Part shown: positions 25,925 through 48,462 of the stretch, in pieces
Position numbering within the stretch: the first letter of the stretch is position 1
Layout: every line of letters starts with the position of its first letter
From: Pseudomonas monteilii
Lineage (GTDB): Bacteria > Pseudomonadota > Gammaproteobacteria > Pseudomonadales > Pseudomonadaceae
DNA: 64,000 bases
Direction: 5' to 3'
NCBI GenBank assembly: GCA_001534745.1
Contig: CP013997.1
Location: 3,906,001 to 3,970,000 of the forward strand
Made by a program: the position numbers and the translations under genes
The notes under the pieces: model-generated
Told to the model about the DNA's origin: nothing
Databases searched by the model: none
What the model saw: only the letters and a program-made list of their open reading frames with translations

Positions 25925-26167
25925 CTAAAATAACACTCCTTCCTGCAGAAATGACCTGATTGTCTCTGGGGAAATACCAGATGGCATGCAGTACTTGTCG
26001 TTGCCTGGTGCGTTCACCTTTCCTTCAGCGTAGGCCTGCCCGTTGGTAACGGCACCTGTCCTGGCCACACCCTTGGAAGTAGGTTTAATAAGTCTTAAGC
26101 AGGCGCTCAGGACTTTGCACATGGACAGTCGCCACACTCTCCCGTACTGAAATGGGGGAGTCGTCAT
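25925..26167 (-). CDS. Possible small protein or remnant, Rap1a/Tai-like C-terminus
   Basis: An 80-residue frame. The last third (GNDKYCMPSGISPETIRSFL) resembles the C-terminal Cys-Pro-x-Gly helix of Rap1a/Tai-type immunity proteins. The signal peptide and the first half of that family are missing. The start overlaps the divergent AraC gene by two bases. It could be a remnant of a longer gene or a chance frame. Confidence 0.25.
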   Translation of the reverse strand: MTTPPFQYGRVWRLSMCKVLSACLRLIKPTSKGVARTGAVTNGQAYAEGKVNAPGNDKYCMPSGISPETIRSFLQEGVLF

Positions 26168-28225: not shown

Positions 28226-31200
28226 TCATCCCGGATTGCCACGCGGCAGCGTGAAGCGAATCCGGCATCCGCCACAGGGCGAATGCTCTGCCTGCAAGCT
28301 ACCGCCATGCGCGCGTACCACCGAATTGCAGATGGCCAGTCCCATTCCAAGACCATGATCCTTGGTGGTGTAGAACGCACCAAAGATGTTCTCCCGCTCA
28401 TCAGCAGGAATGCCAGGACCATTATCGTCGACGCTCACCTCGACCCCATCGTCCAGCGTGCGCGACGTGATGCGCAGCGTCCCATCGTCCGTCCTGAAGC
28501 CTGACAAGGCTTCCAGCCCGTTGTTTATGAGGTTGTAGATCAATTGCTGAACCTGGACCTGGTCGATCATGATGGGGTCAGGCGCATCGAGGTGGGTATC
28601 GAGCTTTACTCCCTGTCTGACGACCTCTGAAGTCGTCAGTCGGATCACCTCACGTATCACATCATCCAGGCATGTCATCTTCTGCTGAGCGTTCGTTTGC
28701 TTGGCGAGCGAACGGAGTGCCCGGACGATACCTGCAGCTCTTTCACTGTCGGCGCGGATGTCTTCCAGGCCTGCGATGGCCTCGTCCAGGTTGGGTGTGC
28801 CGCGTTTCAGCCACCGCAGGCTTGCGGCAGCATTCGAGGCTATGCCCAGTAGCGGCTGGCTGATCTCATGGGCAATGGAGGCCGAGAGTTCACCCATCAC
28901 TTGCATGTGAGCGCTACGCGCCAGCTCTGCACGAGAGCGCCTGAGCGCCTCCTCCATCTGGGCCTTGATCTGGTTATCTTCTGCCAGCCGTGTGAAGAAT
29001 TTCGCAGCCTGGAGCGACACTGCGGCTTGAGAAGCGAGAATTTCGAGCATGGCCAGGCGCTGAGACCCGAACAGACCAGGTACCCGTCGGTTTTCCAGGT
29101 AAACCAATCCAATCAACACCCCTTGCTTGATCAGCGGCAAGCAAAGAACCGAACGGGCGTTTCGCTGCTGCAGTTCACTTCTGAATGCATCGGGACACTC
29201 CAACAGCGCATCATGCAACACCAGATTGGTCTTGGTCCGCATGGTAGCGTTCAGGACGGACACCGGAGCCTGGGTCAAGAATTTCTGACAGTTCTCCATC
29301 GTGACCTTGAGACCGTCATCCTCGATGTCGGCAAGCGCAGCCATCTGAAATTCCGCGCCGCTCACAATCAGCAATGCGCCATGGTCAGCGCCGGAGTGCT
29401 GCATCAGATGGCTCATCAGCGTCTCGATGAGCCGTTCCAGGAGCACTTCTTCCGAAAGCGCTCGGGCGGCCTCAATACCGACCTTCAGATCCAAGTGGGC
29501 CTGGGAAGCACTCCTGAAGGTTTCTTGAACGGGCTGGATGCGCAGGAAAGGGTGTAGCGTCTCCAGTTGTCGAACCTTTCCATTAGCCCCCCATATGTGG
29601 AAGCAGTCCCGAGCGACGCGAAGGTGCAGGTTCGCACCGGAAATCAGACCGCTAGGAATGCACACTTCAGCGAGCTGCTCATGGGCAAGCGCCTGCTCAT
29701 GGAGGAAGCCGGCGGCGGCCGCTGCAATTTGAGCCTGGTCAAAGCAGCGAATCGCCACAAGCCCATCACCGTTTAGCTTGGCGATGACACCTTCGATCAG
29801 CAAAAGCTTATTGCGGAACGTGACAGGGTTCAGGGCTGCCCAGCGGGCGAAACGTTCACGGTTCTCATGCAGCGTCTCGAGTTTCGACTCCGTGGTGCCG
29901 GGTGCTTCAGGGCTACCCAAGGCCAGACTGTAAAACAGGTAGAAGTCGGAAAGGTTGATGTGCGCCGGAGCTGACCATGTCACGGTTTGGGCGGCTCGGA
30001 ACCGACGCACAGCGTAAGGAATGTGCCCAAGGTAGAAGGCCGACATCCCCGCGTAGAGCGAGCTGAAGAAAAGCGTGGTCTTGGAGCGGGCGGCTGCGTG
30101 CCCCGCCTCATAAAGCGCAGTTTCGGCGCAGTCCGACTCAACCATCGGCCTAGGCGAATAGCCTTCGGAAAGGTCCTGAACAAAACGCTCCTGTGCGACC
30201 AGAATGGTCTCGACGTCGGCGTAAGCGTACTGTCGAACCACCTTGAGGCCGCGACCGATCACCTTGGCGACCTCCTGCAGGTGCTCGCCCATGATCAATG
30301 AATCGGACACCAGGTGATTGCATGCGTAACAGGCCATTGCCAAGTCGCCGCTGAGGTGCCCCGTCTCGAAGGCCTCGGACGCTTTCTGTTTGGCGTACTC
30401 CATCGGAGCCGTCCAGGCGCTGACCTGATCCAGCGCAACCAGGGTACCCGTGAGGTCAGCTTCGAACCCATAGCGTTCGATCAGCTTGAGGGCGACCAGA
30501 CAACACGAATAACCGTCGTGATACGCACCGAACCGCTCTGCGATCATGACGCCGTACCAGGACAGGCCGTACGTACTGCCAGGTGCAATGCCGTATTGCA
30601 GTGACAGCTCAACGATCTTGGCAAGGTGCAGGAATCGGATGTCGTCCTCGACGAAGAAGGACGCACCGAGCGTCGCGAGAAGCTCGATGGCCACCTCGGC
30701 TTCTGGATCTGCGATTCTCGGTAGAGACTCCAGGCCAAACAATCCACGCGTGTCGATCAGCGTCTGAAGCTTGACGTGCTCAGCGGCCACCAGGTCGGGG
30801 AGCACACCGCGGCGCATCGTGATCCCAAGGCCGGCAAGCCCCTCGAGCGCTTCGTCGATTGCAGGTTCATACTCCGAGCGCAGCGTGAGAAGCTTGGCTT
30901 TGAGTTTATGCCCCCGGGCGCGCTCGATCCTGTTGCCCGCCCGGCGCATGCATTCTGCAATCTTGTGTTCCGCCTTGATCATCTCCGACAACTGCATGTC
31001 GCATTCAGCGGCTTGATACATGATCGCGAACGAGAACTTGGCGCGAAGATCGTCGCAGTTGCTCGACTGCTGTACGTGTTCGGCCGAGACGAGATAACCC
31101 GCCGCCTGTTCGAAGGCCGCGGTATCACGCGCTCGCGCAGCGGCTTCAAGCAGCAGCGTGAGAAAGTCCTCGGCCTGTTCTGGCTGATACGCGCCTTTTT

Positions 31201-35040: not shown

Positions 35041-35244
35041 GCCGTCCTCTGCAGATGGCTTCCATCATCAAAGCCCGGTGCTGCAATGCACATGAACGAT
35101 GGTCACGCGGGCACTCGAACGGCACGTGCTGCCAGGTCACCGGCTTCCCTGGTCTGGGGCGTCGGAAAAGCCAGGCATGTGTGGCGGGAGGTCGATCAAG
35201 AACGGAGTCGTACGGGATGGGTGCAGAGTAAAAACAAGAATCAG

Positions 35245-35265
35245 TGATTCAAATAAAGGGACAAT
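35245..35265. promoter_or_regulatory. LysR-type site 1, overlapping the ribosome binding site
   Basis: TGAT-TCAAATAAAGG-GACAAT fits the TG(T/A)(C/T)-N11-GACAAT pattern found at three other promoters in the block. It ends three bases before the GTG start of the LysR gene and contains its AAAGGG ribosome binding site, an arrangement suited to autorepression. Confidence 0.55.
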
Positions 35266-35268
35266 TTT

Positions 35269-36171
35269 GTGGATCGAATCGAATGCATGCGTACGTTCAT
35301 CGCTACCGTCGACGCAAGCGGATTTGCTGCGGCGGCCAGGACTCTGCACGTGCCACGCTCGAAAGTGAGCAAGCAGGTCCAAGCGCTGGAGGAGGCGCTT
35401 GGCGTTCAGCTGCTGCACCGTACAACGCGAAGCCTGCACCTTACGGAGGCCGGTTGTGAGTACTACGAAGCGTGCCGAGAAGTCGTGGCGTCGCTTGAAG
35501 AAGCAGAGCAGCGGGCACGCAGTGGCTTGGCTGAAGTTCAGGGCGTACTGCGTGTAAACGCACCCATGTCCTTTGGGCAATGCCGCCTGGGCCCGTTGCT
35601 GCCTCGGTTTCATGCGCTCTATCCCAAGGTGGAGCTGCAGCTTGTCTTGAGCGATCAGCAGGTCGACCCCATCAAGGGAGGATTCGATGTCACGATCCGC
35701 ATTGCGAGTCTTGCCGATTCGTCGCTCGTCGCCCGCCATCTTTCCCCGGCGCCCAGGGTATTGGTCGCGTCACCGGGCTACCTGGCGCAGCACGGGGTAC
35801 CGGAAACGCCCAAGGATCTTGCGTCTCACCACTGTCTGAACTACGGCTACCTCCAGAGCGGGGCCAGCTTGCAATTGAGCAACGGCAAAGACACACAGCG
35901 GGTGCATGTGACGGGGCCTCTGCATGCGAATAACGGCGACCTGCTTGCACAGGCAGCCGAGGCCGACATGGGCATTGCCTTGCTGCCTCTTTTCATCGTC
36001 GAACAGGCCTTGGCTGAGGGACGGTTGATTCAAGTCTTGAACGAATGGGAGGCGCCACCGATCTCGATCAATGCCGTTTATCCGACGGCGCGTCGAGTGC
36101 CCTTGAAGACGCGAGCGTTTCTGGACTTCCTCGCTGCAGAACTGCGGATTTCCGAGACCGCAACCGCTTGA
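35269..36171 (+). CDS. LysR-family regulator, likely controller of the shared motif
   Basis: A 300-residue CrgA-type LysR protein starting at GTG, with AAAGGG eight bases upstream. The winged helix covers about 1-60 (ASGFAAAARTLHVPRSKVSK) and the effector domain about 90-295. A copy of the shared TG(T/A)(C/T)-N11-GACAAT site sits directly at its start, the usual sign of autoregulation. It is therefore the leading candidate to control the esterase, YcaC-type hydrolase and pirin genes that carry the same site. The other LysR (39731-40645) remains an alternative. Confidence 0.88.
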   Translation: MDRIECMRTFIATVDASGFAAAARTLHVPRSKVSKQVQALEEALGVQLLHRTTRSLHLTEAGCEYYEACREVVASLEEAEQRARSGLAEVQGVLRVNAPMSFGQCRLGPLLPRFHALYPKVELQLVLSDQQVDPIKGGFDVTIRIASLADSSLVARHLSPAPRVLVASPGYLAQHGVPETPKDLASHHCLNYGYLQSGASLQLSNGKDTQRVHVTGPLHANNGDLLAQAAEADMGIALLPLFIVEQALAEGRLIQVLNEWEAPPISINAVYPTARRVPLKTRAFLDFLAAELRISETATA

Positions 36172-36310
36172 TGGCAGTCGGATACGGAGGCATTGCCGAG
36201 ATTGCCTGACGGACCACTGAAGACCCTGCCTCGTGGTAGAGATCAAGGGCGAAAACCCTCGATCCAGACAAGGCAGAACCCTCAGCGCTCTGCCACAAGG
36301 TGGCCTCATG

Positions 36311-37330
36311 TCATTGCAGGTTTGCCTTCAGCTCGGCCGCCGCCTGGCGCAGGGCGACCTTGACCGCCGGCACCTGGCTCAGCGGATTGAGCAGGCCGTA
36401 GTCGTGGATCATCCCGTTGTACCGCACCGACGTCACGGTCACGCCAGCCGCGTTCAACTTGCGGGCATACGCCTCACCTTCATCACGCAACACATCGAAC
36501 TCGGCCGTCTGCACCAGCGCCGGCGGCAGCCCCTTGAGCTGTTCGGTGCTGGCCCGCAGCGGCGAGGCGTAGATCTGTTGCCGTGCCATGGCATCGGTGG
36601 TGTAGTTGTCCCAGAACCACTTCATCATGCCGGTGGTGAGGAAGTGCCCCTCGGCGAACTGCGTGTACGAACCGGTCTCGAAGCTGGCATCGGTCACCGG
36701 CCACAACAGCAGCTGGAAGCGCAACGTGGGCGTACCGGCTTCCTTGGCCTTGAGCGCCACCACGGCGGCCATGTTGCCGCCGACGCTGTTGCCGGCTACA
36801 GCCAGGCGCTTGCCGTCGACATCGATCTCGCTGCCGTGCTCGGCGACCCACTGAGTGGCGGCATAGGCCTGGTCGATCGCCGTCGGGTACTGGGCTTCTG
36901 GCGACGGGGTATAGTCGACATAGACAGCCACCGCGCCGGAGCCGACCACCAGATCGCGAATCAGCCGCTGATGGGTCGGGAAGTCGCCGAGTACCCAGCC
37001 GCCGCCGTGGAAGAACATGAACACGGGCAGCTTGCCTTTGACGTTGGCCGGGCGCACCACCTGCAGCTTGATCGACTGGCCGTTGGCCTGGATGGTGCGT
37101 TCCTTGACCTCGATACCGGAAAGGTCGACCTTCACCGAAGCCTGGGCCCCGGTCAACACGGCGCGGGCGTCTTTCGGGCTGAGCTGTTCGAGCGGCTTGC
37201 CACCCCCTTTTTCCAGCGCCTCGAGGAAGGCCTGCGTGTGCTGCTCGACGCCTGGGCTGCCGGCGGCGAAGGCGCTGGACACGGACAGCGCGAGCAGCGA
37301 GGCGGTGAGGGTCTTGTGGACAATGTTCAT
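36311..37330 (-). CDS. Exported alpha/beta hydrolase (HSL-type esterase)
   Basis: A 339-residue esterase with a Sec signal peptide (cleavage near 22-24, SSAFAAG), so it acts in the periplasm or outside the cell. The oxyanion motif HGGG is at 108-111, the nucleophile Ser182 lies in GNSVGG, and Asp279 and His309 complete the triad. This is the hormone-sensitive lipase/acetyl esterase family. A LysR-type site lies 128 bases upstream of its ATG at 37458-37478. The natural ester is unknown. Confidence 0.9.
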   Translation of the reverse strand: MNIVHKTLTASLLALSVSSAFAAGSPGVEQHTQAFLEALEKGGGKPLEQLSPKDARAVLTGAQASVKVDLSGIEVKERTIQANGQSIKLQVVRPANVKGKLPVFMFFHGGGWVLGDFPTHQRLIRDLVVGSGAVAVYVDYTPSPEAQYPTAIDQAYAATQWVAEHGSEIDVDGKRLAVAGNSVGGNMAAVVALKAKEAGTPTLRFQLLLWPVTDASFETGSYTQFAEGHFLTTGMMKWFWDNYTTDAMARQQIYASPLRASTEQLKGLPPALVQTAEFDVLRDEGEAYARKLNAAGVTVTSVRYNGMIHDYGLLNPLSQVPAVKVALRQAAAELKANLQ

Positions 37331-37457
37331 GAGCGAATCCTTTTCCTTGCACGTAAGAGTAGTGGGCGTCTTGCCTGGCCTTCAGGGCCATCGCTGCGAC
37401 TTGTTCGTAGATTAAAGAGATGGGCAGATGGGAAAAAGCCGCCCAACAGGGTTTCAC

Positions 37458-37478
37458 TGTCGCTTCAAAAGGGACAAT
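37458..37478. promoter_or_regulatory. LysR-type site 2, upstream of the esterase
   Basis: TGTC-GCTTCAAAAGG-GACAAT, an exact TGTC-N11-GACA dyad. It lies in the 258-base gap between the esterase start and the end of the DoxX gene. The rest of that gap shows no gene. Confidence 0.6.
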
Positions 37479-37588
37479 TCAACGAGGCCTGGAGTCGTTC
37501 GCTGTCACGATCGAGCTCGCCACCCAGGCGAATGTCGGAGGCAGGAGTGTTCATGGTCCGTTCGAGACATTCGATCCGCCAGCCGCTG

Positions 37589-38062
37589 TCATGGAGCGAG
37601 GTGATGTTTACTGGAAAGGCACCGGTCGAGACGGCGCATTGCAAAGCGCGCAGGCATCCTGATCACCCAGGCGCCGGGGCCGGTAATGGCCAGGCCTGCA
37701 TACAGCACGATGAGCAGCCAAGCGAACTGGGCCTCCTCCAACGTCCATTCCGGATGCACCACCACCAGCGCAACCCCGAGCACGGCGAGCACAGGCAGGC
37801 AGGCCAGTCGTGCGAACACGCCAAAGACCAGCAACAGGGGACAGACCACTTCAGCGAACACCGCCATGGCCAGCGTCAGCGTCGGCCCCAAGCCAAATGG
37901 ATCTTCGATCCGCTGCAGTTCGGTGCTCCAGTTGAGCAGTTTGGGGAGGCCGTGAATCTGGAGCAGCAGCGCCGCGGCAGACACGCGCAAGAACAACAGG
38001 CCGAGTGGGACCGAGCGTTCAGCCAAGGTACTTGGTCTGTGTGGGTTGTCTGAAATGACCAT
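37589..38062 (-). CDS. DoxX-family membrane protein
   Basis: A 157-residue protein with four predicted helices (about 18-36, 58-82, 86-104 and 110-132) and the DoxX hallmark HGLPKLLNW at 37-45. DoxX proteins are linked to thiosulfate or quinone oxidation and to oxidative stress in some bacteria; the role here is unknown. The gene lies between the DedA and esterase genes on the same strand, with 100 bases to the former. Confidence 0.88.
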   Translation of the reverse strand: MVISDNPHRPSTLAERSVPLGLLFLRVSAAALLLQIHGLPKLLNWSTELQRIEDPFGLGPTLTLAMAVFAEVVCPLLLVFGVFARLACLPVLAVLGVALVVVHPEWTLEEAQFAWLLIVLYAGLAITGPGAWVIRMPARFAMRRLDRCLSSKHHLAP

Positions 38063-38162
38063 GTCGCGAATCCTTGTACCTGAAGGTTGAAAGTTCTTGG
38101 ATGCCTCATCGCCCTGCAGCGATGGGCCGCCATGTTCATGTCGAGCGTGAGGCCCTCGACAG

Positions 38163-38786
38163 CTATTTGATGATCGGGCGCCGTATCGCCTGCTTCAGCG
38201 CAGTGCGCGCGACTTTGAATGCCAGCAACCCTAGGGCGCCGACACCGACACTCGCCAATCCGAGCACCAGGTAGTCCTTCATGCTGTCGAAGACATACAC
38301 GATCGGCCCACCGAAGCCGGCACCGAGCGCGAGAGCACTGTTGCACCAGAGCAGTGAACTCAACAGGCTGTAGGCCACAAAATGCGATTTGGGCATGCCC
38401 AGTTGTCCAGCCAGCAGCGTGGAAACCGCGCCTGCGCCAGGGACGAACTTGGCGAAGATCAGCACCATGGGCCCATGGCGCAGGTAGGCCTTGCGTCCTT
38501 GAGCAAAGGCAGCACTCATTTTCGGAAAGCTTCTGCAAATCCTGCGCGTCAGGGCATCGCCAAATCGGGCACCCATGAAGTACCAGATGCAATCAGCAAG
38601 CAGACAAACGACCAAAGCCATCAGAACGACGAGCACGGGATCAGGTGCTCCATGCTGACTGGCAAACGCTCCGGCAAGGACCAGCGAGGGGTAGGACGGA
38701 ATGGGCAAGCCCATCTGATCGCCGAAAACGTTCAGTGCGAGTAGCAGCAACGGGTGATCCACTGCAAAGCTTTCAACTGGACTCAT
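38163..38786 (-). CDS. DedA-family membrane protein
   Basis: A 207-residue protein of the DedA/SNARE-associated family with the conserved FGDQMGLPIPSYPSLVLAGA segment near 20-40 and FAKFVPGAGAVSTLLAGQLG near 110-130. Four to five membrane helices are predicted. DedA proteins act as lipid scramblases or flippases and in drug and membrane-stress tolerance. It may be co-transcribed with DoxX. The 120 bases upstream of it lead to the end of the second YcaC-type gene. Confidence 0.9.
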   Translation of the reverse strand: MSPVESFAVDHPLLLLALNVFGDQMGLPIPSYPSLVLAGAFASQHGAPDPVLVVLMALVVCLLADCIWYFMGARFGDALTRRICRSFPKMSAAFAQGRKAYLRHGPMVLIFAKFVPGAGAVSTLLAGQLGMPKSHFVAYSLLSSLLWCNSALALGAGFGGPIVYVFDSMKDYLVLGLASVGVGALGLLAFKVARTALKQAIRRPIIK

Positions 38787-38906
38787 GGCGGCACCTCTTC
38801 TGGGCTCGGCTGTCGTCGGATCGCTGAAGGCAGGGTGCGGCGAGTCAGCGCGAAGCCGTCAACCTGAGCCGCGATCGCACTCAGGCCGACGGTTCACGCC
38901 TGGCAG

Positions 38907-39551
38907 TCAGGACACCTGACGTGGAGGGGCCTTGTGCACCATGGTGTAGGCGTAATCGACCCCCATGCCATAGGCACCACTGTGCTCCCGGACCAGGTCC
39001 ATGACCGGTTGGTAGGTGTCCTTGTGCGCCCAGTCACGCTGGTATTCGAGCAGCACTTGCTGCCAGGTCACCGGAATGGCGCCGGCCTGAATCATGCGCT
39101 GCACCGACATGTCATGGGCTTCCTGGGTGGTACCGCCCGAGGCATCGGTGACGATGTACACCTCGTAACCGGCTTCCATGGCTTGCAGCGCCGGGAAGGT
39201 CAGACAGACTTCGGTCCACAGTGCCGCCATGATCAGTTTCTTGCGGCCAGTGGCGTTCACCGCCTCGACCAGCTTGGCGTCTTCCCAGCTGTTCATGGAG
39301 GTGCGCTCGATGGGCTGCGCACCTGGGTTCACCGCCAACAGTTCTGGCCAAATATAACCGCTGAAACTTTCGGTTTCGACCGAGGTGTAAAGGGTCGGAA
39401 CGTTGAAGATCTTGGCGGCCTTGGCCAGGCCGACCGTATTGTTTTTCAATGTCTGACGGTCGATGGACTGAACACCAAACGCCATTTGGGGTTGATGATC
39501 GATCAAAATCAGCGCGGAGTTGGTCGGGTTCAGCAGTTCGTATTTGGACAT
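38907..39551 (-). CDS. YcaC-type isochorismatase-family hydrolase (second)
   Basis: A 214-residue hydrolase read from MSKYELLNPTNSALILIDHQ, with GAAGAGA upstream. Catalytic Asp18 (LIDHQPQ) and Cys116 (LWTEVCLTFP) are present. It is clearly paralogous in family to the protein at 27518 but far diverged, so this is not a recent duplication. A LysR-type site lies about 140 bases upstream (39690-39710). Substrate unknown. Confidence 0.9.
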   Translation of the reverse strand: MSKYELLNPTNSALILIDHQPQMAFGVQSIDRQTLKNNTVGLAKAAKIFNVPTLYTSVETESFSGYIWPELLAVNPGAQPIERTSMNSWEDAKLVEAVNATGRKKLIMAALWTEVCLTFPALQAMEAGYEVYIVTDASGGTTQEAHDMSVQRMIQAGAIPVTWQQVLLEYQRDWAHKDTYQPVMDLVREHSGAYGMGVDYAYTMVHKAPPRQVS

Positions 39552-39689
39552 GGTTGCAGTCTCTTCAGAATGATTGAAAACATGACGTATCAAACAGACT
39601 CCGCACGGTGCGAATGGCGTTGTCTGCGGCATGGGGATCATTCTGATTGGTACAACTTGACCGCACAATTACCCTAAGTTTGACTTGTC

Positions 39690-39710
39690 TGTTTCAATAA
39701 AAGAGACAAT
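39690..39710. promoter_or_regulatory. LysR-type site 3, upstream of the second YcaC-type gene
   Basis: TGTT-TCAATAAAAGA-GACAAT fits the shared pattern. It sits inside a longer inverted repeat (TTGTCTGTT / AAGAGACAA, seven bases between, one mismatch, 39685-39709). It lies in the gap between the LysR gene's stop and the hydrolase start. Confidence 0.6.
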
Positions 39711-39730
39711 CGCTCATCCCTCCCGAAGTG

Positions 39731-40645
39731 TTACGCATGACGCTCTACAACTTCCAGCAACGCTTTCATGAATGTCGTAAAGGCCTTGCGCCGTGTGGAC
39801 TCACGGTTGATGGGCAAATAGATGATATTGATCGACGTGTTCACCGACCCCGGATTCACCTCATGGTCGGGTAGCACACGGGTGAGTCGTCCCTGTTGAA
39901 CATCCTCCGCCACCAGCCAGTCCGCCAGCAGCGCTATGCCCTGCCCTGCGACTGCCGCTTGCCTGAGAACGTCTGCGTTGTTGCTCTGCACACGCCCCTG
40001 GACCGAAACCGATACGGTCTGGCCATCGACGTCGAAGTGCCAGTCCGACCGTGATTCCCCGTAGTCGAAACGCATGCACGCATGGTCTGCGAGCTCGCCT
40101 GGCCGTGTCGGGGTTCCACACTGCTTCAGGTAGGCCGGGCTGGCCACCAGCCAGCGTTGGAAATGGCCGATGGTGTTGCAGATGACTTCTTCGCTGGAGA
40201 CCGTCGACCCCAGGCGTACGCTCAGGTCGATCCGGTCTTTGTACAGGTCGACTCTCTCATCACTGAGACTCAGGCTCACCTCCAGCGCCGGATGGGCTGC
40301 AAGCAATCGCCCAAGGTGGGGCGCGATCAAGCGCCGTCCGAACTCCACCGGGACGCTGACGCGGAGCTTGCCTTTCGCTTCACTTCCCCTATCGGACACC
40401 ATGCTGTCAGCCGCGGCCAGGGCATCCAGCAGGGCCACGGCCTTATCGAAATAGGCTTGGCCCAGGTCGGTGGGGCTGTTTCGCCGTGTGCTGCGAGTGA
40501 TCAGCGTTGTGCCTAGCTCCGACTCCAAAGCTGCCACCTGGCGCGCCACGGACGAGGTCGCCACGCCGAGCTTTCGTGCCGCGGCGGAGTAGCCGCCGCA
40601 ACGCACGGTCTCCACGAACATGTTCAGGGCAAGCAATTTATCCAT
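39731..40645 (-). CDS. LysR-family transcriptional regulator
   Basis: A 304-residue CrgA-type LysR protein starting MDKLLALNMFVETVRCGGYS. The winged helix is at about 1-60 (AARKLGVATSSVARQVAALE) and the effector domain at about 90-295. It lies upstream of the YcaC-type gene on the same strand and downstream of the MFS gene on the same strand. It could control either, and it is the second candidate for binding the shared motif. No copy of that motif lies before its own start. Confidence 0.9.
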   Translation of the reverse strand: MDKLLALNMFVETVRCGGYSAAARKLGVATSSVARQVAALESELGTTLITRSTRRNSPTDLGQAYFDKAVALLDALAAADSMVSDRGSEAKGKLRVSVPVEFGRRLIAPHLGRLLAAHPALEVSLSLSDERVDLYKDRIDLSVRLGSTVSSEEVICNTIGHFQRWLVASPAYLKQCGTPTRPGELADHACMRFDYGESRSDWHFDVDGQTVSVSVQGRVQSNNADVLRQAAVAGQGIALLADWLVAEDVQQGRLTRVLPDHEVNPGSVNTSINIIYLPINRESTRRKAFTTFMKALLEVVERHA

Positions 40646-40760
40646 AGGTCCGACTCTGTTGAAGGTCCATGAGGCGAGCGGATGTGTTCACCACTCGGGG
40701 TTTCAGACAGTGTGGATCATAGCCAGGTGGACTGGCCTTGAGCATGGACGGGTGTGTGGT

Positions 40761-41975
40761 TCAGCGCTTGCCCATGTGCTTTGCCAGATACACCATAAGT
40801 GCCAAGGCAGGGATCACTGCAGCCGAGCACAGGGTCGTGGTCCAGCCCAGTCGCTCGTAGAGCGGACTGGCGACCATAGAACCCACTGCTCCACCGACGA
40901 AGATACTGGTCATGAACACTGCGTTCAGGCGTGCCCGACTGTTGGGGTCCAGGGCATAGACCTCGCGCTGGCCGAGGACCATGTTCAGTTGCACGGCGAA
41001 GTCCAGGGCTATCGCAGCTGCAACCAGTCCCAGGTAACCCAGGCCGGGCACTGCGCCGACCAGCATGGCTGCCGGTGCCAATGCCAAGGCGACCAGCGTG
41101 CTCACGTTGCCATGACCGGCATCGGCCAGGCGGCCAGCGATCGGCGCCGCAATGGCACCCACGGCACCGACCAGGGCGAACAGCGCCACCCCGTTCTGAC
41201 TGAAACCATGATGACGAATCAACTCGATCGGAACGACAGTCCAGAAGAAACTGAAGCTTGCGAACAGCAACCCCTGGTACAACGAGCGCTCCCGCAGAAC
41301 GGCATACTGCCTGGCCAGTCCGAAGACAGAGCCAATCAGGCGACCATAGGTGGTGTGATGGTTCGGCATGCGCGCAGGCAGCAGTACCGTCACCAGCGCA
41401 GCAATCACGACCATCAACACGGCGGCACTAAAGAACACCCCTCTCCAGCCCATGTACGCCGACATCAGGCTGGACACGGGGCGAGCCAGCAGGATTCCGA
41501 TCAGCAAGCCACTCATGATGTTGCCCACCACCCGGCCACGGCTGTTTTCAGGCGCCATGTGCGCGGCCAGTGGCACCAGGATCTGCACGGCGACGGAGGT
41601 CAGCCCTATCATCAGCGACGCGATCAAAAATAGCGAAGGCGACTCGGCCAGGCCTGCTGCTGTCAGAAACACAGCGACGACCAAGGTGAAGCCGATCACC
41701 AGGCGTTTGTTTTCCATCAGATCGGCCAAAGGCACCAGGAACAGCAGGCCGGCGGCATACCCGAACTGGGTCAACGCAACGACCAGGCTGGCGTGTTCAG
41801 GAGACAGGCCAATGCGTGGGGCGATGAGTTCGACGATTGGCTGCGCATAGTAGAGGTTGGCGACTATGGCCCCACAACAAAAGGCAAGAAAGGTCACCAA
41901 GGCCTTGGATAGCGTTGGTGTTGCGTCGGCATGCGCCGACGTTGAAGTCACTGCTTCTGGACTGCTCGCTGACAT
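40761..41975 (-). CDS. MFS transporter (DHA1-type)
   Basis: About 404 residues from MSASSPEAV, preceded by GGAG eight bases upstream; an ATG at 42014 would add 13 residues. Twelve helices are predicted. The loop LVPLADLMENKRLVIGF after the second helix is the typical MFS G-x(3)-D-R-like motif in variant form. Such YjiJ/Ynfm-like transporters export small molecules. It lies 115 bases upstream of the LysR gene on the same strand and divergent from the amidohydrolase gene. Confidence 0.88.
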   Translation of the reverse strand: MSASSPEAVTSTSAHADATPTLSKALVTFLAFCCGAIVANLYYAQPIVELIAPRIGLSPEHASLVVALTQFGYAAGLLFLVPLADLMENKRLVIGFTLVVAVFLTAAGLAESPSLFLIASLMIGLTSVAVQILVPLAAHMAPENSRGRVVGNIMSGLLIGILLARPVSSLMSAYMGWRGVFFSAAVLMVVIAALVTVLLPARMPNHHTTYGRLIGSVFGLARQYAVLRERSLYQGLLFASFSFFWTVVPIELIRHHGFSQNGVALFALVGAVGAIAAPIAGRLADAGHGNVSTLVALALAPAAMLVGAVPGLGYLGLVAAAIALDFAVQLNMVLGQREVYALDPNSRARLNAVFMTSIFVGGAVGSMVASPLYERLGWTTTLCSAAVIPALALMVYLAKHMGKR

Positions 41976-42242
41976 GGGGACATCTCCGCACAGGATGAGA
42001 ACGCTCAGGAGCAAGCCTAGGTAGGACGTGGCGTTATCGGAATACGTGTGTCACGCAATGGACTTGTGCAGATGACGCAAGACTGCCAGCCCGCGCACCG
42101 CGACCGGTCCCGTTCTTCACACGCGTCCCGCAGCCACGCGGCGGAGCAACAGCCCACCGCACATCCGTCCAATCCTCGGCCTGTTTCAGCTGGCATGCTC
42201 TGCAGTGACACCTGTCGCCGCCGCCCTCACACGGAATTGAAC

Positions 42243-44225
42243 ATGCCTCAGGATCACAACGACAAGACCCGTCGCCAGTTCCTCGCCGCCAGCACTGTGC
42301 TGGGTGCCGCTGGCGCGCTTTGGTCTGCATTGCCTTTCACCGGCCAGGCCGGTTCCGCTCACGCATCCATCCAAGGAGGTTACATGACCGCCGACCTGAT
42401 TCTGTTCAACGGCAAACTGCACACCGTTGACCGCGAAAAGCCCACCGCCACCGCCGTCGCCATCAAGGACGGCCGCTTCGTGGCCGTGGGCAGCGACGCC
42501 GAGGCCATGGCCCACAAGGGCAGCGCCACGCAGATCATCGACCTCAAGCAGCGCACGGTGATCCCGGGCCTGAACGACTCGCACCTGCACCTGATCCGCG
42601 GCGGCCTGAACTACAACCTTGAACTGCGTTGGGAAGGCGTACCGTCGGTGGCCGATGCCCTGCGCATGCTCAAGGACCAGGCCGCCCGCACCCCGACCCC
42701 GCAGTGGGTACGCGTGGTCGGTGGCTGGAATGAATTCCAGTTCGCCGAAAAACGCATGCCGACCCTGGAAGAAATCAACCAGGCCGCCCCTGATACCCCG
42801 GTGTTCCTGCTGCACCTGTACGACCGCGCGCTGCTCAACCGCGCTGCGCTCAAGGCCGTCGGCTACGACAAGACCACACCGAACCCGCCCGGTGGAGAGA
42901 TCCAGCGTGACAAGTTCGGCAACCCGACCGGCATGCTGATCGCTCGCCCGAACGCGATGATTCTCTACGCTACCCTGGCCAAGGGGCCGAAGCTGCCGCT
43001 GGAATACCAGGTCAACTCCACCCGCCAGTTCATGCGCGAGCTGAACCGCCTGGGCCTGACCAGTGCCATCGACGCCGGCGGCGGTTACCAGAACTTCCCC
43101 GATGACTACTCGGTGATCCAGGAGCTGGCCGACAACGATCAACTGACCGTCCGCATCGCTTACAACCTGTTCACCCAGAAGCCCAAGGAAGAACTGGACG
43201 ACTTCCGCACGTGGACCTCCAGCGTCAAGCTGCACAGCGGCACCGACTTCCTGCGCCATAACGGCGCTGGCGAGATGCTGGTGTTCTCGGCCGCCGACTT
43301 CGAGGACTTCCTCGAGCCGCGCCCGGACCTGCCGCAGACCATGGAAGAAGAGCTGGAACCCGTAGTGCGCCACCTGGTGGAGCAGCGCTGGCCGTTCCGC
43401 CTGCACGCCACCTACAACGAATCGATCACGCGCATGCTCGACGTGTTCGAGAAGGTCAACCGCGACATCCCGTTCAACGGCCTGCCGTGGTTCTTCGACC
43501 ATGCCGAAACCATCACCCCGCAGAACATCGAGCGTGTCCGTGCGCTGGGCGGCGGTATCGCCATCCAGGACCGCATGGCCTTCCAGGGTGAGTACTTCGT
43601 CGACCGCTACGGCGCCAAGGCCGCCGAACAGACGCCGCCGATCAAGCGCATGCTCGACATGGGCGTGCCGGTAGGTGCGGGCACCGATGCCACCCGCGTC
43701 TCCAGCTACAACCCGTGGACTTCGCTGTACTGGCTGGTCAGCGGCAGGACCGTGGGGGGCATGGCGCTGTATCCGGAAGGCCTGGACCGCGATACCGCAC
43801 TGCAGCTGTTCACCCAGGGCAGCGCCTGGTTCTCCAGCGAGCAAGGCAAGAAAGGCCAGATCAAGGTGGGCCAACTGGCCGATCTGGCAGCGTTGTCGCT
43901 GGACTTCTTCAGTGTCGAAGAAGAAGCGATCAAGGGCATCGAATCCGTGCTGACCGTCGTCGACGGCAAGGTGGTGTATGCGGCGGGCGAATTCGATCGC
44001 CTCGGCCCACCCCAGGTGCCTGTACTGCCGGAGTGGTCCCCGGTGGCCAAGGTGCCGGGGCACTGGCGCGTGGGCACGCCGTCGCTGGCAGCCACCGTGC
44101 ACCAGTGTTCGGGACCGTGCGGCGTGCATGCGCATAGCCATGACAAGGCGCGCAAGTCGAGTGTGCCGGTGAATGACTACCAAGGATTCTGGGGAGCGCT
44201 GGGCTGTTCGTGCTTTGCTTTCTAA
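42243..44225 (+). CDS. Tat-signal YtcJ-like metal-dependent amidohydrolase
   Basis: A 660-residue amidohydrolase with TIM-barrel motifs: the HxH metal site in NDSHLHLIRGGL, later histidines in LHATYNES and FDHAET, and the late Asp in GTDATRVSSYNPW. Residues 1-43 form a twin-arginine signal (TRRQFLAAS, then a hydrophobic stretch ending in SAHAS), predicting export of the folded enzyme. Most relatives instead start like MTADLILFNGKLHTVDRE, which is Met48 here, and AAGGAGG lies directly before that codon. Both forms may be made. The substrate is unknown. A terminator follows. Confidence 0.88.
   Translation: MPQDHNDKTRRQFLAASTVLGAAGALWSALPFTGQAGSAHASIQGGYMTADLILFNGKLHTVDREKPTATAVAIKDGRFVAVGSDAEAMAHKGSATQIIDLKQRTVIPGLNDSHLHLIRGGLNYNLELRWEGVPSVADALRMLKDQAARTPTPQWVRVVGGWNEFQFAEKRMPTLEEINQAAPDTPVFLLHLYDRALLNRAALKAVGYDKTTPNPPGGEIQRDKFGNPTGMLIARPNAMILYATLAKGPKLPLEYQVNSTRQFMRELNRLGLTSAIDAGGGYQNFPDDYSVIQELADNDQLTVRIAYNLFTQKPKEELDDFRTWTSSVKLHSGTDFLRHNGAGEMLVFSAADFEDFLEPRPDLPQTMEEELEPVVRHLVEQRWPFRLHATYNESITRMLDVFEKVNRDIPFNGLPWFFDHAETITPQNIERVRALGGGIAIQDRMAFQGEYFVDRYGAKAAEQTPPIKRMLDMGVPVGAGTDATRVSSYNPWTSLYWLVSGRTVGGMALYPEGLDRDTALQLFTQGSAWFSSEQGKKGQIKVGQLADLAALSLDFFSVEEEAIKGIESVLTVVDGKVVYAAGEFDRLGPPQVPVLPEWSPVAKVPGHWRVGTPSLAATVHQCSGPCGVHAHSHDKARKSSVPVNDYQGFWGALGCSCFAF
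42373..42386 (+). promoter_or_regulatory. Internal ribosome binding site and alternative start
   Basis: AAGGAGG at 42373-42379 lies four bases before an in-frame ATG (42384) inside the amidohydrolase gene, just after the Tat signal region. It is a full Shine-Dalgarno match, stronger than anything before the upstream ATG at 42243. Confidence 0.55.
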
Positions 44226-44245
44226 GCTGATGTGACGGTCGAAAG

Positions 44246-44270
44246 AAAGGGGCCGCGATGGCCCCTTTTC
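44246..44270 (+). terminator. Intrinsic terminator after amidohydrolase
   Basis: Stem AAAGGGGCC / GGCCCCTTT with a GCGAT loop and a short T-run, 20 bases after the stop codon. It lies between the convergent amidohydrolase and porin genes and could serve both. Confidence 0.85.
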
Positions 44271-44321
44271 TTGGTTCTGCCTCGACTGCAGCACGCAGGA
44301 CCGTACGCCGAGACCATGACG

Positions 44322-45584
44322 TCAGAATCTACCTGCAAGGGGGTACTCGATGATCAGGTAGATACGGTCGATGTCGCCACCCGCCTGGGCTTGATTGGCT
44401 CGGTGACTGACATGGGAGAACGCCAGGCTGAGATCCTTTGCCGCGCCTGACTGGATGACATACTTCAGGTCGATATCGCGCTCCCAGTGCTTGCCACCCT
44501 GACCTTGCTGGCCGACATAGGCCCCGCCAGCTGGCGCACGTGTCCCGTCGATACCGCGACCGCTGACGTATCGCCCCATCAGGCTCAAGCCGGGCACACC
44601 GAGCGTCGTGAAGTTGAGGTCATAGCGTAGCTGCCATGAACGCTCCCCTGGACCATTGAAGTCAGCATACTTGATCGAATTGGCCAGGTAGATGGCATCG
44701 CCTCCGACAAAGTCGAAGGGCGTCTTGCCCTCGACCTTCTGGTAGGCCACGCTCAGCGCCTGGGCACCGAAGCTGAAGCTGGACAGCACGCTGTACGCCA
44801 GGGTATCGATTGCGCCTGCACTGGCCTTGCCGGTATCACGGGTCTGGTAGAGGTTGCCATCCAAGCGCCAATGGCCCTCAGCCCTGTTCAGGTTGAGGTA
44901 GACCTGACGCCATGTATCGTCCAGCACCCCGGCGTACAGCGCCCCCGCGAATGACCCCTTCGACGCGAATGTAGCGCCGGCCAGGCTGATCGCCCGATCA
45001 TGCGTCGTCGCGCCATAGCCGCTGAAGTCATCGTGGGTCGAACTGTTGTCCTGGTTGTTGAAGGCGGTGAAACGGCCTGCCTGAAAACGCCAGTCGGGCA
45101 GGTCTGCATTCTCCAGAAGCCAGCCCGTGGCATATTCAGGGTGCAGACGTTTGTCACCTGTATCGAACACCGGGGTTTCCACCATCATCTCGCCGTAGCG
45201 CAGTCGCGTGTTGCCCAGGCGTAGCTTGAGTGCGGCGCCTGCGCTGGAATACTCGGACGCTGCACGGTTATCGCTGTCGCGCGGCAGCAGCCCGGCACCG
45301 GCATGGCCACGCCCCCCGTCCAGCTTGAAACCGATGAACCCGTGGGCATCGATACCGACGCCAATGGGGCCTTTGGTAAACCCTGAGTGGATATCGCCGA
45401 TGAAGCCCTGCGCCCATTCTTGGCGATAATTCTGGCCGCTCCCGGACGGTGAGCGGAAGTCGCTGTGCAAGAAGTAGTGACGCGTGAGCAGCGACCAGCC
45501 CGCTTCGTCGGCTTGGCTGAAAAGCGGGCAACAGGTCAGCGTTGCGAGCAGGATGCGGCCTGGTCCGTGAGGTACGCGGATCAT
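44322..45584 (-). CDS. OprD-family outer membrane porin
   Basis: A 420-residue porin with an N-terminal signal peptide (cleavage near residue 24, LFSQA), the OprD start EAGWSLLTRHYFLHSDFRS, an 18-strand barrel and a C-terminal Phe. OprD channels admit specific amino acids or aromatic and other carboxylates. The C-terminal YPLAGRF ending is typical. It lies downstream of an MFS exporter on the same strand with a 193-base gap. Substrate not inferable. Confidence 0.92.
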   Translation of the reverse strand: MIRVPHGPGRILLATLTCCPLFSQADEAGWSLLTRHYFLHSDFRSPSGSGQNYRQEWAQGFIGDIHSGFTKGPIGVGIDAHGFIGFKLDGGRGHAGAGLLPRDSDNRAASEYSSAGAALKLRLGNTRLRYGEMMVETPVFDTGDKRLHPEYATGWLLENADLPDWRFQAGRFTAFNNQDNSSTHDDFSGYGATTHDRAISLAGATFASKGSFAGALYAGVLDDTWRQVYLNLNRAEGHWRLDGNLYQTRDTGKASAGAIDTLAYSVLSSFSFGAQALSVAYQKVEGKTPFDFVGGDAIYLANSIKYADFNGPGERSWQLRYDLNFTTLGVPGLSLMGRYVSGRGIDGTRAPAGGAYVGQQGQGGKHWERDIDLKYVIQSGAAKDLSLAFSHVSHRANQAQAGGDIDRIYLIIEYPLAGRF

Positions 45585-45777
45585 GGTGGCTCCGGGTGGA
45601 ATGAGCCTGAACTCTGCGCGATTGCCAGGGCTGGGGTCTTGTAACGGTGTGCTAGATGCCGATCACCCTCCCCGGCAGTGAGCCCTTGAAGGCTCGGTGC
45701 CGAGGAGCAATGCCAATGGTGTCAGGTACGTTGCCCAGGGCCGCACGATTCGTGTGGATTGCCCACACCGTGGCGGT

Positions 45778-47385
45778 TCAATGCTCGCCAGACCGATGAT
45801 GGATGTGTGTTCCAGCCAACAGATGACGAATTTTCACAGGTACGCCTTCGCTCTGGAATGTGCGCACCCGCGCTTCGATGCTCAACTCACCGTGGGTCAC
45901 CCGATGGTGATGACGCAGGTGCTCGAGCCAGGACTCTTCGAAGAAAAATTCCTGCCACACACTGGGCTCCGCGCTGTCCTGCATCAATCCCCAGGACAAG
46001 GCACCGTTTCGCTTGCGCATGGCTTCCAGCTCTCGAGCCGCCTGTGTGAACGCCTCTGCCTGAGCCGGATCGATATGGTACTCGACCGTCACCATGACAG
46101 GGCCACGTTCCTGATCCAGGTCATCGCTGAGCACGGGCGCGGGCCAGTGCAGCGAGGGCACGAGTTCTTCAGCTTCCGTTTCAGGGAGCGCCACCCTGCA
46201 GGTGGCGAGGGTCGCCAGGGCAAGGCCGCCAGCAGCCAACAGCAGGCTCAGCGTGATCGAGGCATGGCTCGCCACAGTCCCCCACAGAAGGCCGCCGCCC
46301 GCCATGGAACCGAAGAAGACCAGAATGTACACCGACAGTGCTCGGGCTCGTACCCACGCCGGCACCGACGTCTGAGCGGCAACCTGCATGTTGGACAGCA
46401 CCGCGATCCAAGCGGCCCCACCCATCAGCATCGCCGGCAGCAGCACATAGAAACTGCGGACCGATGCGAGCACAAGCAGGAACATGGCATACAACAGGCT
46501 GGCGATCATGACCAAACGGTCTCGACTGATCCGTTCACGCAAGGCAGGCAGAAGCGTTGCGCCCCCTACAGCGCCAATGCCTATTGCGGCGAGCAACAAC
46601 CCGAAATCGGCTGCGGTCCCCTGCATCTCGCTTCGCACGATCAAGGGCAGCAATGAAGTACCCGCGCTGGCAAACAGGAAGAAGGCCAGTGCACGAATCA
46701 GTACGGCTTGAAGTGGCTTGGAGCTTCTCGCAAATCGCATCCCCGTACGTATTGCGCCGATGAAGCGCTCGGCAGGCAAGAGCGGTTCCTTCACCTCGCG
46801 CTTCCACATGAACAGCACTAGGATGACACCCGCAAACGAAACGGCGTTGAGTGCGAATGTCAGCCACGGGCCTACCAGGCTGACCACCACACCTGCCAAG
46901 GCAGGGCCGATCGCTCGCGAGACGTTTATGCCGACACTCGAGATGGCCACCGCATTCGACAGATCCTCCTTCCCGACCAGCTCAGGTGTCAGGGCGCTCC
47001 ACGCCGGCATCATCAACGCCGTCCCCATGCCCAACGCCAACGTAAGCACCAGAAGCAAGGGCACGTTCATCAGCCCTAGCAGCGTGAGGCTTGCCAGGGT
47101 CACGGCGACTGCCGACATCCAGAGCTGCACGAGCAGCAGGTAACGTCGTTTATCGACAATGTCAGCAGCGGCTCCGGCTGGAAGGGCCAGGAAGAACATG
47201 GGTAGCGAGCCTGCCACTTGAATCAATGCAACATGCAGCGGGCTGGCTGAAAGGGTGGTCATCAACCATCCAGCGCCGACTTCGTGCATCCAGGTACCGA
47301 TGTTGGAGGCAATCGTTGCGATCCATAACATGCGGAAGGTGGTATTGCGCAAGGGGCTCCAAGCGCCAGAGGTGGATGTGCTCAT
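45778..47385 (-). CDS. MFS_3 (EntS-like) transporter with C-terminal ABM-like domain
   Basis: About 535 residues from MSTSTSGAWSPLRNTTFRML; an ATG at 47442 would add 19. Twelve membrane helices (about 15-400) are of the enterobactin-exporter-like MFS_3 family. A soluble C-terminal domain (about 420-530: VMVTVEYHIDPAQAEAFTQA) resembles the ABM fold, as in many members. The end is His-rich (GTHIHH). It lies downstream of pirin on the same strand, 241 bases away, and upstream of the OprD porin. Substrate unknown. Confidence 0.9.
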   Translation of the reverse strand: MSTSTSGAWSPLRNTTFRMLWIATIASNIGTWMHEVGAGWLMTTLSASPLHVALIQVAGSLPMFFLALPAGAAADIVDKRRYLLLVQLWMSAVAVTLASLTLLGLMNVPLLLVLTLALGMGTALMMPAWSALTPELVGKEDLSNAVAISSVGINVSRAIGPALAGVVVSLVGPWLTFALNAVSFAGVILVLFMWKREVKEPLLPAERFIGAIRTGMRFARSSKPLQAVLIRALAFFLFASAGTSLLPLIVRSEMQGTAADFGLLLAAIGIGAVGGATLLPALRERISRDRLVMIASLLYAMFLLVLASVRSFYVLLPAMLMGGAAWIAVLSNMQVAAQTSVPAWVRARALSVYILVFFGSMAGGGLLWGTVASHASITLSLLLAAGGLALATLATCRVALPETEAEELVPSLHWPAPVLSDDLDQERGPVMVTVEYHIDPAQAEAFTQAARELEAMRKRNGALSWGLMQDSAEPSVWQEFFFEESWLEHLRHHHRVTHGELSIEARVRTFQSEGVPVKIRHLLAGTHIHHRSGEH

Positions 47386-47626
47386 TCCATTGCTGCCTTT
47401 GACAAAGTGGGGTGGATACAGGTCGGTATTCCGGGTCGTCATGGCTGGGTCATGCCCGCCTGGAGCGCGCGCACGAGCCTCCAGCCAGCATCGGCCGGCC
47501 CGAATCGGTTCTTGGGTAGACGTCTCGACGGGACGAGTGCCAGGTCGGCAGTCCCTGATTCAGCCAGGCGGCCTGCTCTGCGCCCGCTTTGCGAGGAGAG
47601 GCAGGACCGTCATCCGGCTGCATGGG

Positions 47627-48349
47627 TCAAGGCATGCGGGGCAACTCATGGGGTCGCAGGTCGAACACGAGCACTTCTGCATCACGCCCGTTGGAAAGCT
47701 CGATGACCTGCTCTTTTCTCATGCGAACACCGTCGCCTTCACGAAGCGGCTGGCCGTTCACCTCGATGCCCCCACGTGCCACGTGCACATAGGCATGACG
47801 GTTGTCAGCCAGCGTCAGGGTCGCCTGCTCGTCACCGTCGAAGAGGCCCGCATAGACACGCGCATCCTGGCGAACCTGGAGCGAACCCTGCTGGCCATCG
47901 GGCGAAATGATCAGCCGGAGTTTGCCGCGCTTTTCATCATCGCTGAAGTGCTGCTGCTGATAACGAGGCGCCGCGCCACGTACATTGGGCACGATCCAGA
48001 TTTGCAGAAAATGAACCGGTTGTGACGTGCTGTGGTTGAACTCACTGTGAGCGACTCCACTGCCTGCACTCATCAATTGCACATCACCGGGTGTGATGAC
48101 CGATCCAGTACCCAGCGTGTCTTCATGCGCCAGAGCGCCCTCGAGTACATAAGAAAAGATCTCCATGTCACGGTGAGGGTGCTGGCCGAAACCTTTGCCT
48201 GCGATCACCCGGTCGTCGTTGATGACCAGAAGATCAGAAAAGCCACGCTCCTCAGGGTCGTGGTAGTCCGCGAATGAAAAGGTATGAGACGACTTCAACC
48301 AGCCATGGTTGGCGTGGCCACGTTCTTCAGCGTTACGGACAGTGATCAT
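47627..48349 (-). CDS. Pirin-family protein (YhaK-like)
   Basis: A 240-residue bicupin. The N-terminal cupin has metal ligands in FGQHPHRDME (His57, His59) and in SGVAHSEFN (His101, Glu103), all present. The C-terminal cupin (about 150-240) lacks ligands, as usual. Pirins of this type can oxidise flavonoids such as quercetin in vitro and are induced by electrophile or nitrogen-oxide stress in enterobacteria. A LysR-type site lies 94 bases before the ATG. It is likely a co-regulated stress enzyme. Confidence 0.92.
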   Translation of the reverse strand: MITVRNAEERGHANHGWLKSSHTFSFADYHDPEERGFSDLLVINDDRVIAGKGFGQHPHRDMEIFSYVLEGALAHEDTLGTGSVITPGDVQLMSAGSGVAHSEFNHSTSQPVHFLQIWIVPNVRGAAPRYQQQHFSDDEKRGKLRLIISPDGQQGSLQVRQDARVYAGLFDGDEQATLTLADNRHAYVHVARGGIEVNGQPLREGDGVRMRKEQVIELSNGRDAEVLVFDLRPHELPRMP

Positions 48350-48441
48350 GCTATGTCTCCTTGGGGCTCAAGTGCCTCTTTGCGATGAATCAACTTTACT
48401 GTCAGGCCTTAAGAACCAGAAGACGCAGTCCAGGGAATGAC

Positions 48442-48462
48442 TGTCTCTTGAATAGGGACAAT
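48442..48462. promoter_or_regulatory. LysR-type site 4, upstream of pirin
   Basis: TGTC-TCTTGAATAGG-GACAAT, an exact TGTC-N11-GACA dyad whose arms TGTCTCT/AGGGACA pair with one mismatch. It lies in the 347-base gap between the divergent pirin and SirB1-like genes. That gap also holds the right copy of the direct repeat and otherwise shows no gene. Confidence 0.65.

Follow-up and report, generated by a model that had tools for sequence, protein, structure and literature searches.

The question raised by this locus is whether a single regulator reads four near-identical sites and, if so, which one. The sites, of the form TGWY-N11-GACAAT, lie in a stretch of 64,000 nucleotides of the Pseudomonas monteilii genome (assembly GCA_001534745.1, contig CP013997.1, positions 3,906,001 to 3,970,000 of the forward strand; hereafter the window), upstream of genes for a LysR-type regulator (LTTR1), an esterase, a YcaC-type cysteine hydrolase and a pirin. 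We used pattern searches, matrices built from related sites and comparative genomics across Pseudomonas to investigate this. Sequence conservation and gene associations indicate that the four sites are probably operators of one LysR-type activator, LTTR1. Two of the targets, the esterase and the pirin, are elsewhere associated with a paralogous regulator, LTTR3.

All four sites lie where the initial annotation had placed them (35245-35265, 37458-37478, 39690-39710 and 48442-48462), each with a spacing of 11 bp, and the window holds no fifth exact match; 0.26 matches would be expected, and 100 shuffles never yielded four. The additional half-site reported near 26714 is indeed a half-site only, the best placement of a full site there having five of the 12 key bases wrong. 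Another lone half-site, ATTGTCTCT, is found at about 25959-25981, some 200 bp upstream of an AraC-like gene at 26166, with four of the 12 key bases wrong relative to the full operator. The whole genome (one contig of 4,714,359 bases) has 20 exact matches, namely the four of the block, eight repeat copies and eight scattered ones, seven of the latter falling within mechanically called open frames of 100 codons or more and the eighth outside. The repeat copies, which inflate the genome-wide counts, are identical copies of TGACCAAGAAATACAGACAAT at eight places (e.g. G000:C1, 1965190-1965210) that mark an element, possibly insertion-sequence-like, repeated in the genome. With these copies set aside, four of 12 matches fall in 13.2 kb, against a Poisson expectation of 0.034 (P about 5e-8, a post hoc value because the pattern was chosen by looking at this block).

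Allowing a tighter pattern up to two mismatches gave 30 matches in the genome and 16 with a reversed-pattern control; subtraction of the eight repeat copies and of six readings in the cluster (one for each site and a second, on the other strand, for two of them) leaves 16, i.e. the background, and at this stringency the site set is confined to the 13-kb cluster. Likewise, the operator form learnt from relatives, ATTGTC-N11-GACART, is matched perfectly at two places in the genome, the esterase and pirin promoters. With one mismatch allowed it yields seven readings (these two, the same two places on the other strand and three elsewhere with one mismatch) versus four for its reversed control. The initial annotation had proposed searching the pattern genome-wide and in related strains. 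Outside the cluster these pattern searches recovered nothing above background that would indicate a further regulon, save a partial site at an adhC-linked LysR gene, and in relatives the site is kept at near-fixed places. The observation of four sites is confirmed; they form a real and probable LysR operator set, ordinary in kind.

On the opposite strand each of the four sites reads as a strong half, ATTGTCYCT, with an inverted copy 11 bases beyond ATTGTC; this copy is well matched in the esterase and pirin sites (GACAGT) and poorly in those of ycaC (AACAGA) and LTTR1 (ATCACT). The T-N11-A inverted repeat, given as the LysR box in the accessible portions of two papers (PMC5031710, PMC6422896), is present as TGWY-N11-GACA in all four, with a weak inverted copy at ycaC and LTTR1. 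The claim that three sites lie 90-140 bases upstream of a start codon needs small corrections: the distances are 93-113 bp for pirin and 128-148 bp for the esterase, but 139-159 bp for ycaC, from the ATG at 39551. The fourth site was said to cover the ribosome-binding site of the LysR gene, and it does contain a Shine-Dalgarno-like AGGGA before the GTG. Upstream of the ABM, ycaC2, amidohydrolase, OprD, MFS, doxX, dedA, LTTR2 and sensor-kinase genes of the window the best matches have 3-6 mismatches, and the same holds upstream of doxX, ABM, amidohydrolase and ycaC2 in relatives; for the gene divergent from pirin, what such comparisons pick up is the site of pirin.

LTTR1 is a LysR-type protein, scoring 71 bits with PF00126 (cut-off 26.6) and 154.7 bits with PF03466 (cut-off 28). 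We surveyed its close relatives, the only ones this search finds, by scanning one genome for each GTDB species with a peptide pattern, which recovered 77 loci: 76 from Pseudomonas and one Lysobacteraceae fragment (below, L numbers denote loci and G numbers genomes). A divergent ycaC orthologue adjoins LTTR1 in 70 of the 77; within the locus none was found in L024, L025, L037, L089, L091 and L097, and L021 has it on the far side. The operator directly precedes LTTR1 in 72 loci with at most two mismatches (44 have the exact pattern of the initial annotation), and was missed in L021, which has an extra base of spacing, and in L028, L030, L074 and L097. These two regularities make LTTR1 (35269-36171) the most likely regulator of the four promoters, as judged from sequence. 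When 59 genomes of the genus were scanned for exact matches, six besides the one studied here had a single match each, directly upstream of LTTR1 in every case. The L021 locus, from Pseudomonas endophytica, has LTTR1, doxX, dedA and ycaC arranged nearly as in the window, with operators at both ends and no esterase between them. An esterase orthologue (81-82% identity) lies beside LTTR1 or behind ycaC in three of the 77 loci (L026, L089, L091). Relative to the perfect repeat, 90 distinct LTTR1 promoters have two (54), three (31) or more (5) mismatches, and 81 ycaC promoters one (1), two (49), three (27) or four (4). By this count the esterase and pirin have stronger sites than LTTR1 and ycaC. 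A remnant of LTTR1 beside the ycaC of the window was considered from the promoter alignment, and the signal was too weak to be put forward.

The esterase and pirin sites are themselves well conserved. Among 49 distinct esterase promoters (at least 79% identity, window included), 45 have one mismatch in the 12 key bases, two have two, one has three and one has five; among 45 pirin promoters (at least 72% identity, window included), 11 have one mismatch, 31 two, one four and two six. The positions of these sites are nearly constant, e.g. -114 in many pirin promoters. The neighbour in many relatives is a different LysR gene, LTTR3 (L175:17990-18886), which is 41% identical to LTTR1 and lies back to back with the esterase, its start codon overlapping the operator (L175, L279); in G056, G093, G115, G167, G182 and G213 it is instead divergent from pirin. 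The proposal of the initial annotation that one regulator controls the esterase, hydrolase and pirin is therefore upheld in part: by sequence LTTR1 is the probable regulator at all four promoters of the window, but in relatives the esterase and pirin go with another LysR protein. Across 199 sampled genomes of the genus, LTTR1 was found in 37 and LTTR3 in 110 (E limit 1e-110 for both), pirin in 107 (1e-118) and the esterase in 83 (1e-170). Of these, 102 carry both LTTR3 and pirin, 8 have LTTR3 without pirin, 5 have pirin without LTTR3 and 84 have neither, although the genomes are related and a test on them is not independent. One of the five with pirin alone, G001, has beside its pirin a 53% identical relative of LTTR3 that lies below the E limit (L141). 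The genome of the window is the only one with pirin among the 12 that have LTTR1 but no LTTR3, and a direct search of it for LTTR3 returned seven LysR genes without finding LTTR3, the best being LTTR1 at 41%.

Several related arrangements were noticed in the course of this survey. In six Pseudomonas stretches (L175 and its equivalents L176-L180) a single cluster of about 17 kb has LTTR3 beside the esterase, along with ycaC2, an amidohydrolase, an ABM-domain protein, DoxX, two large regulators that by eye are winged-helix/ATPase-like, and pirin; the window carries rearranged relatives of these genes. In G009 (L183:7167-11640) pirin, MFS, ycaC, dedA and doxX lie together, with LTTR3 present and LTTR1 not found at E 1e-110, which is the mirror image of the situation in the window; the ycaC-dedA-doxX set beside pirin keeps a site there that LTTR3 could perhaps read. 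In L259 (G093) pirin lies directly behind an esterase-type operator, ATTGTCTCGCTCTTGGTGACAGT, a layout such as would remain if the esterase gene had been excised from between the promoter and pirin.

The esterase and pirin operators of the window were compared with matrices built from distinct sites, own genome excluded (LTTR1 41 and ycaC 36 sites, 43 when pooled; esterase 22; pirin 37); we left out the sites of L021, L089 and L157 and any with more than three (LTTR1, ycaC) or two (esterase, pirin) mismatches. Over positions 1-12 the esterase operator scores +6.1 for LTTR1 versus the esterase matrix, where the 22 orthologous sites, each left out in turn, range from -18.9 to -4.6; the pirin operator scores +11.3 for LTTR1 versus the pirin matrix, where the 37 orthologous sites range from -19.8 to +4.1. 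This comparison is somewhat biased, in that the orthologues leave near relatives in the matrix and the window sites do not. Positions 13-23 favour the older types, at -8.8 for the esterase and -9.5 for pirin versus their own matrices. Whole-site scores versus the own matrix lie above those of all orthologues for both the esterase (-2.6, against -41.0 to -19.3) and pirin (+1.8, against -36.8 to -4.0). A BLAST alignment of the esterase promoter with ten relatives stops at 37461 in nine and at 37464 in one, this break being the end of the esterase-proximal half of the operator; beyond it lies LTTR3 in the relatives and other DNA in the window. Both operators look like hybrids, with a promoter-proximal half of the older type and a distal half of the LTTR1 type. 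The LTTR1-like outer halves suggest a replacement of the regulator, and we consider it tentatively, with nearly even weight for and against, that the esterase and pirin moved from LTTR3 to its paralogue LTTR1 when LTTR3 was lost.

The sites, their conservation, positions and gene associations are what the DNA itself offers, and from these we infer a scheme covering binding, activation, autorepression, operon structure, the direction of evolution and the inducer. The strong half ATTGTCYCT and its weaker inverted copy would provide a T-N11-A type contact for the LysR protein. LysR activators bind a recognition site near -65. When 46 esterase, 44 pirin and 81 ycaC promoters were aligned, a -10-like hexamer was found to be kept downstream of the operator, strongly at the esterase and less so at pirin and ycaC. 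If transcription is taken to start 7 bp after this hexamer, the operator is centred at -65 for the esterase, -65 for pirin and -66 for ycaC, counted from starts that are predicted from hexamers of our own choosing. Inducer-bound LTTR1 at these positions might then recruit RNA polymerase to ycaC-dedA-doxX, the esterase and pirin, whereas at its own gene, where the operator covers the ribosome-binding site, LTTR1 may limit its own production. The divergent ycaC/LTTR1 pair would be the older module, under whose regulator the esterase and pirin, elsewhere associated with LTTR3, could have been brought in this LTTR3-less lineage. An operator over the regulator's own start is also seen at LTTR3 and, as a poorer site, at the LysR gene G000:1127876-1128733. 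The latter region (G000:C1:1127876-1128771; L190, L102) encodes a third LysR protein of the CrgA-like type, about 36% identical to LTTR1, in which GGGACAAT ends two bases before the start codon. This LysR gene, the adhC-linked one, is divergent from a gene that by eye resembles a glutathione-dependent formaldehyde dehydrogenase.

This last paralogue bears on the likeliest rival, which we still regard as unlikely: that two or more related LysR proteins share the sites, LTTR1 reading its own and that of ycaC, and another CrgA-like regulator, e.g. the adhC-linked one at 1.128 Mb of G000, still reading the esterase and pirin. The association of these two genes with LTTR3 rather than LTTR1 in relatives agrees with such a division, as do the ACTGTC, common in relatives, that the promoter-proximal halves of both operators keep, the preference of positions 13-23 for the older types, and the fact that the paralogues share both the type of box and its placement over their own start. 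Weighing the other way, LTTR3 itself was not found in this genome, the remaining paralogues are encoded far away, and the outer halves of both operators are LTTR1-like over positions 1-12, subject to the bias mentioned above. LTTR2 (39731-40645) is a far less probable candidate; it belongs to the cluster and immediately precedes the ycaC promoter on the same strand, but its own 350-bp upstream stretch has no operator (best match five mismatches), the conserved neighbour of the site is LTTR1, and LTTR2 is only 36% identical to it. We rejected LTTR2 on the absence of an upstream site and of any conserved linkage, in a survey that covered the orthologues of LTTR1. That the pattern is a coincidence of chance or composition is scarcely credible. 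It was defined from these very promoters and has 16 more exact matches in the genome, but its conservation at near-fixed positions in many species already contradicts chance, and the placement before predicted starts is similar while matches elsewhere are at background level.

Assignment of all four promoters to LTTR1 nevertheless has to be set against a number of findings that weigh against it. Neither the esterase nor the pirin operator of the window is a clear LTTR1 site over its whole length: the log-odds of the former do not favour LTTR1 (-2.6 versus the esterase and -6.2 versus the pirin matrix) and those of the latter do so weakly (+2.1 and +1.8, respectively). The half-site types are not exclusive, as two of the 22 distinct esterase sites of relatives start with ATTGTCYCT, and owing to this overlap the evidence for hybrids is suggestive and not proof. 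Of 12 more distant esterase homologues (70-78% identity) 11 are without the site, L160 alone having one, so that the operator belongs to one esterase subgroup. G009 keeps a good site at ycaC in spite of LTTR1 not being found there. Cross-binding is possible given that another paralogue also has GGGACAAT at its start codon, and the conservation of AGGGA at LTTR1 could partly reflect a Shine-Dalgarno sequence. Finally, the agreement at -65 is not a blind test, the hexamers having been picked by us from the alignments.

Comparisons with characterized systems help to place LTTR1. Its best solved relative is 3hhg (E 2e-47), a one-way match by which LTTR1 is at most a candidate orthologue of CrgA; 3hhg is the LysR family member CrgA of Neisseria meningitidis, according to PMC6422896. 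The same paper describes Pseudomonas aeruginosa CrgA as a repressor of alkB2. The family architecture is common to LTTR1 and CrgA, but the P. aeruginosa CrgA operators given there are repressor-bound mirror repeats, e.g. GGGA-N3-GGC-N-GG-N-CGG-N3-AGGG, as opposed to ATTGTC-N11-GACART, and the target differs. YafC, the best NCBIfam model (NF040888), was rejected as an identity for LTTR1 at 225.9 bits against a cut-off of 470.

The gene set, comprising a cysteine hydrolase, pirin, DoxX, DedA and esterase, by analogy resembles that of the Escherichia coli LysR activator YhaJ. The accessible portion of PMC5031710 reports that YhaJ turns on yhaK, yhhW (pirin-type) and yqjF in the presence of hydroquinone or dinitrotoluene, and that yhaJ and yhaK are divergent. 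The gene yqjF is of the DoxX family, so pirin-type and DoxX targets are common to both sets, and of the solved structures YhhW is the closest to the pirin of the window. The neighbourhood of yhaJ in E. coli K-12 includes the DedA gene yqjA, the DoxX gene yqjF and a gene for a glutathionyl-hydroquinone reductase. However, the YhaJ box in that portion is TCA-N7-TGA, a form that the four sites do not have, and no ycaC or esterase target is seen in it. LTTR1 was rejected as YhaJ itself at 25% identity over 261 residues (E 8e-7). The part of PMC9068703 consulted reports down-regulation of ycaC in an E. coli ycaN deletion, which points to a LysR regulator supporting ycaC expression there too. YcaN is 29% identical to LTTR1, on which ground membership of LTTR1 in the YcaN family was rejected; ycaN is not adjacent to ycaC, unlike the LTTR1/ycaC pair of Pseudomonas, and that part of the paper shows no pirin or esterase target. 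The YcaC of the window is 41% identical to that of E. coli. In the solved structure of the P. aeruginosa YcaC the active-site cysteine carries an acrylamide adduct, and the substrate of this protein is described as not known (PMC4519933). The likeness to the YhaJ set and this adduct lead us to guess, with low confidence and by analogy, at a phenol, quinone or aldehyde-like inducer; in the scheme above this would probably be a phenolic, a quinone or another electrophile.

The initial annotation knew of no described regulon of this make-up. That needs qualification, as the genes switched on by YhaJ include two of pirin type and one for a DoxX protein, and ycaC expression falls in the ycaN mutant, as far as the accessible text of these papers goes; it stands insofar as neither regulator is close to LTTR1. 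We found no description of the regulon defined by this site set, or of the operator together with its gene set, in a literature search, and works beyond those opened could hold one; a search by locus tag for a possible P. aeruginosa counterpart, PA2417-PA2419, returned no paper. LTTR1 and LTTR3, two Pseudomonas LysR regulators for which no description was found, gain a testable operator and target set, and YcaC, pirin, DoxX, DedA and an esterase of uncertain physiological role become linked into one putative response. The locus is also a natural case for studying the exchange of target genes between paralogous regulators, and the replacement of LTTR3 by LTTR1, if true, is an evolutionary twist of interest.

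Coordinates of the operators, promoter elements and genes discussed, as positions in the window
Feature	Coordinates	Strand	Remarks
LTTR1 operator, AGTGATTC-N7-GGGACAAT	35243..35265		4-26 bp before GTG start; probable autoregulatory site, from sequence
Shine-Dalgarno-like AGGGA	35257-35261		Within LTTR1 operator; 7 bases before GTG
LTTR1, LysR-type regulator, HTH_1 + LysR_substrate	35269..36171	+	CrgA/YafC-like
Esterase, alpha/beta-hydrolase fold 3, hormone-sensitive-lipase type	36311..37330	-	Signal-peptide-like N terminus by eye
Predicted esterase -10 hexamer TAATCT	37409..37414	-	Kept in relatives
Esterase operator, ATTGTCCCTTTTGAAGCGACAGT	37456..37478	-	Esterase-proximal half aligns with relatives; distal half LTTR1-like
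DoxX-family membrane protein	37589..38062	-	Third gene of probable ycaC operon
DedA/VTT-family membrane protein	38163..38786	-	Second gene of probable ycaC operon
YcaC-type isochorismatase-fold cysteine hydrolase	38907..39551	-	First gene of probable ycaC operon
Predicted ycaC -10 hexamer CAGAAT	39640..39645	-	Consensus of relatives at same place: TAAAGT
ycaC operator, ATTGTCTCTTTTATTGAAACAGA	39688..39710	-	Distance to ycaC about that of the LTTR1/ycaC intergenic site of other Pseudomonas
LTTR2, second LysR gene	39731..40645	-	Probably not the regulator
MFS exporter-like gene	45778..47442	-	184 bp behind pirin; possibly co-transcribed with it
Pirin	47627..48349	-	Nearest solved relative E. coli YhhW
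Predicted pirin -10 hexamer TAAAGT	48393..48398	-	
Pirin operator, ATTGTCCCTATTCAAGAGACAGT	48440..48462	-	

The esterase, DoxX, DedA and YcaC genes are all on the minus strand and convergent to LTTR1. The gaps of 120 bp between ycaC and dedA and of 100 bp between dedA and doxX suggest that these three probably form one operon behind the site at 39690. As the ycaC promoter would serve this operon, and an MFS gene lies behind pirin (a pair also adjacent in G009), the regulon is likely to be larger than the initial annotation had it. The MFS protein has a C-terminal extension that by eye resembles a small monooxygenase-type (ABM-like) domain. Upstream of LTTR1, positions 28226-33373 encode a protein of 1715 aa that, by eye, runs from a serine/threonine-kinase-like first part through an ATPase region to a histidine kinase at its end. 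It adjoins two response-regulator-like genes (33638, 34624), and this layout is kept in P. endophytica (L021).

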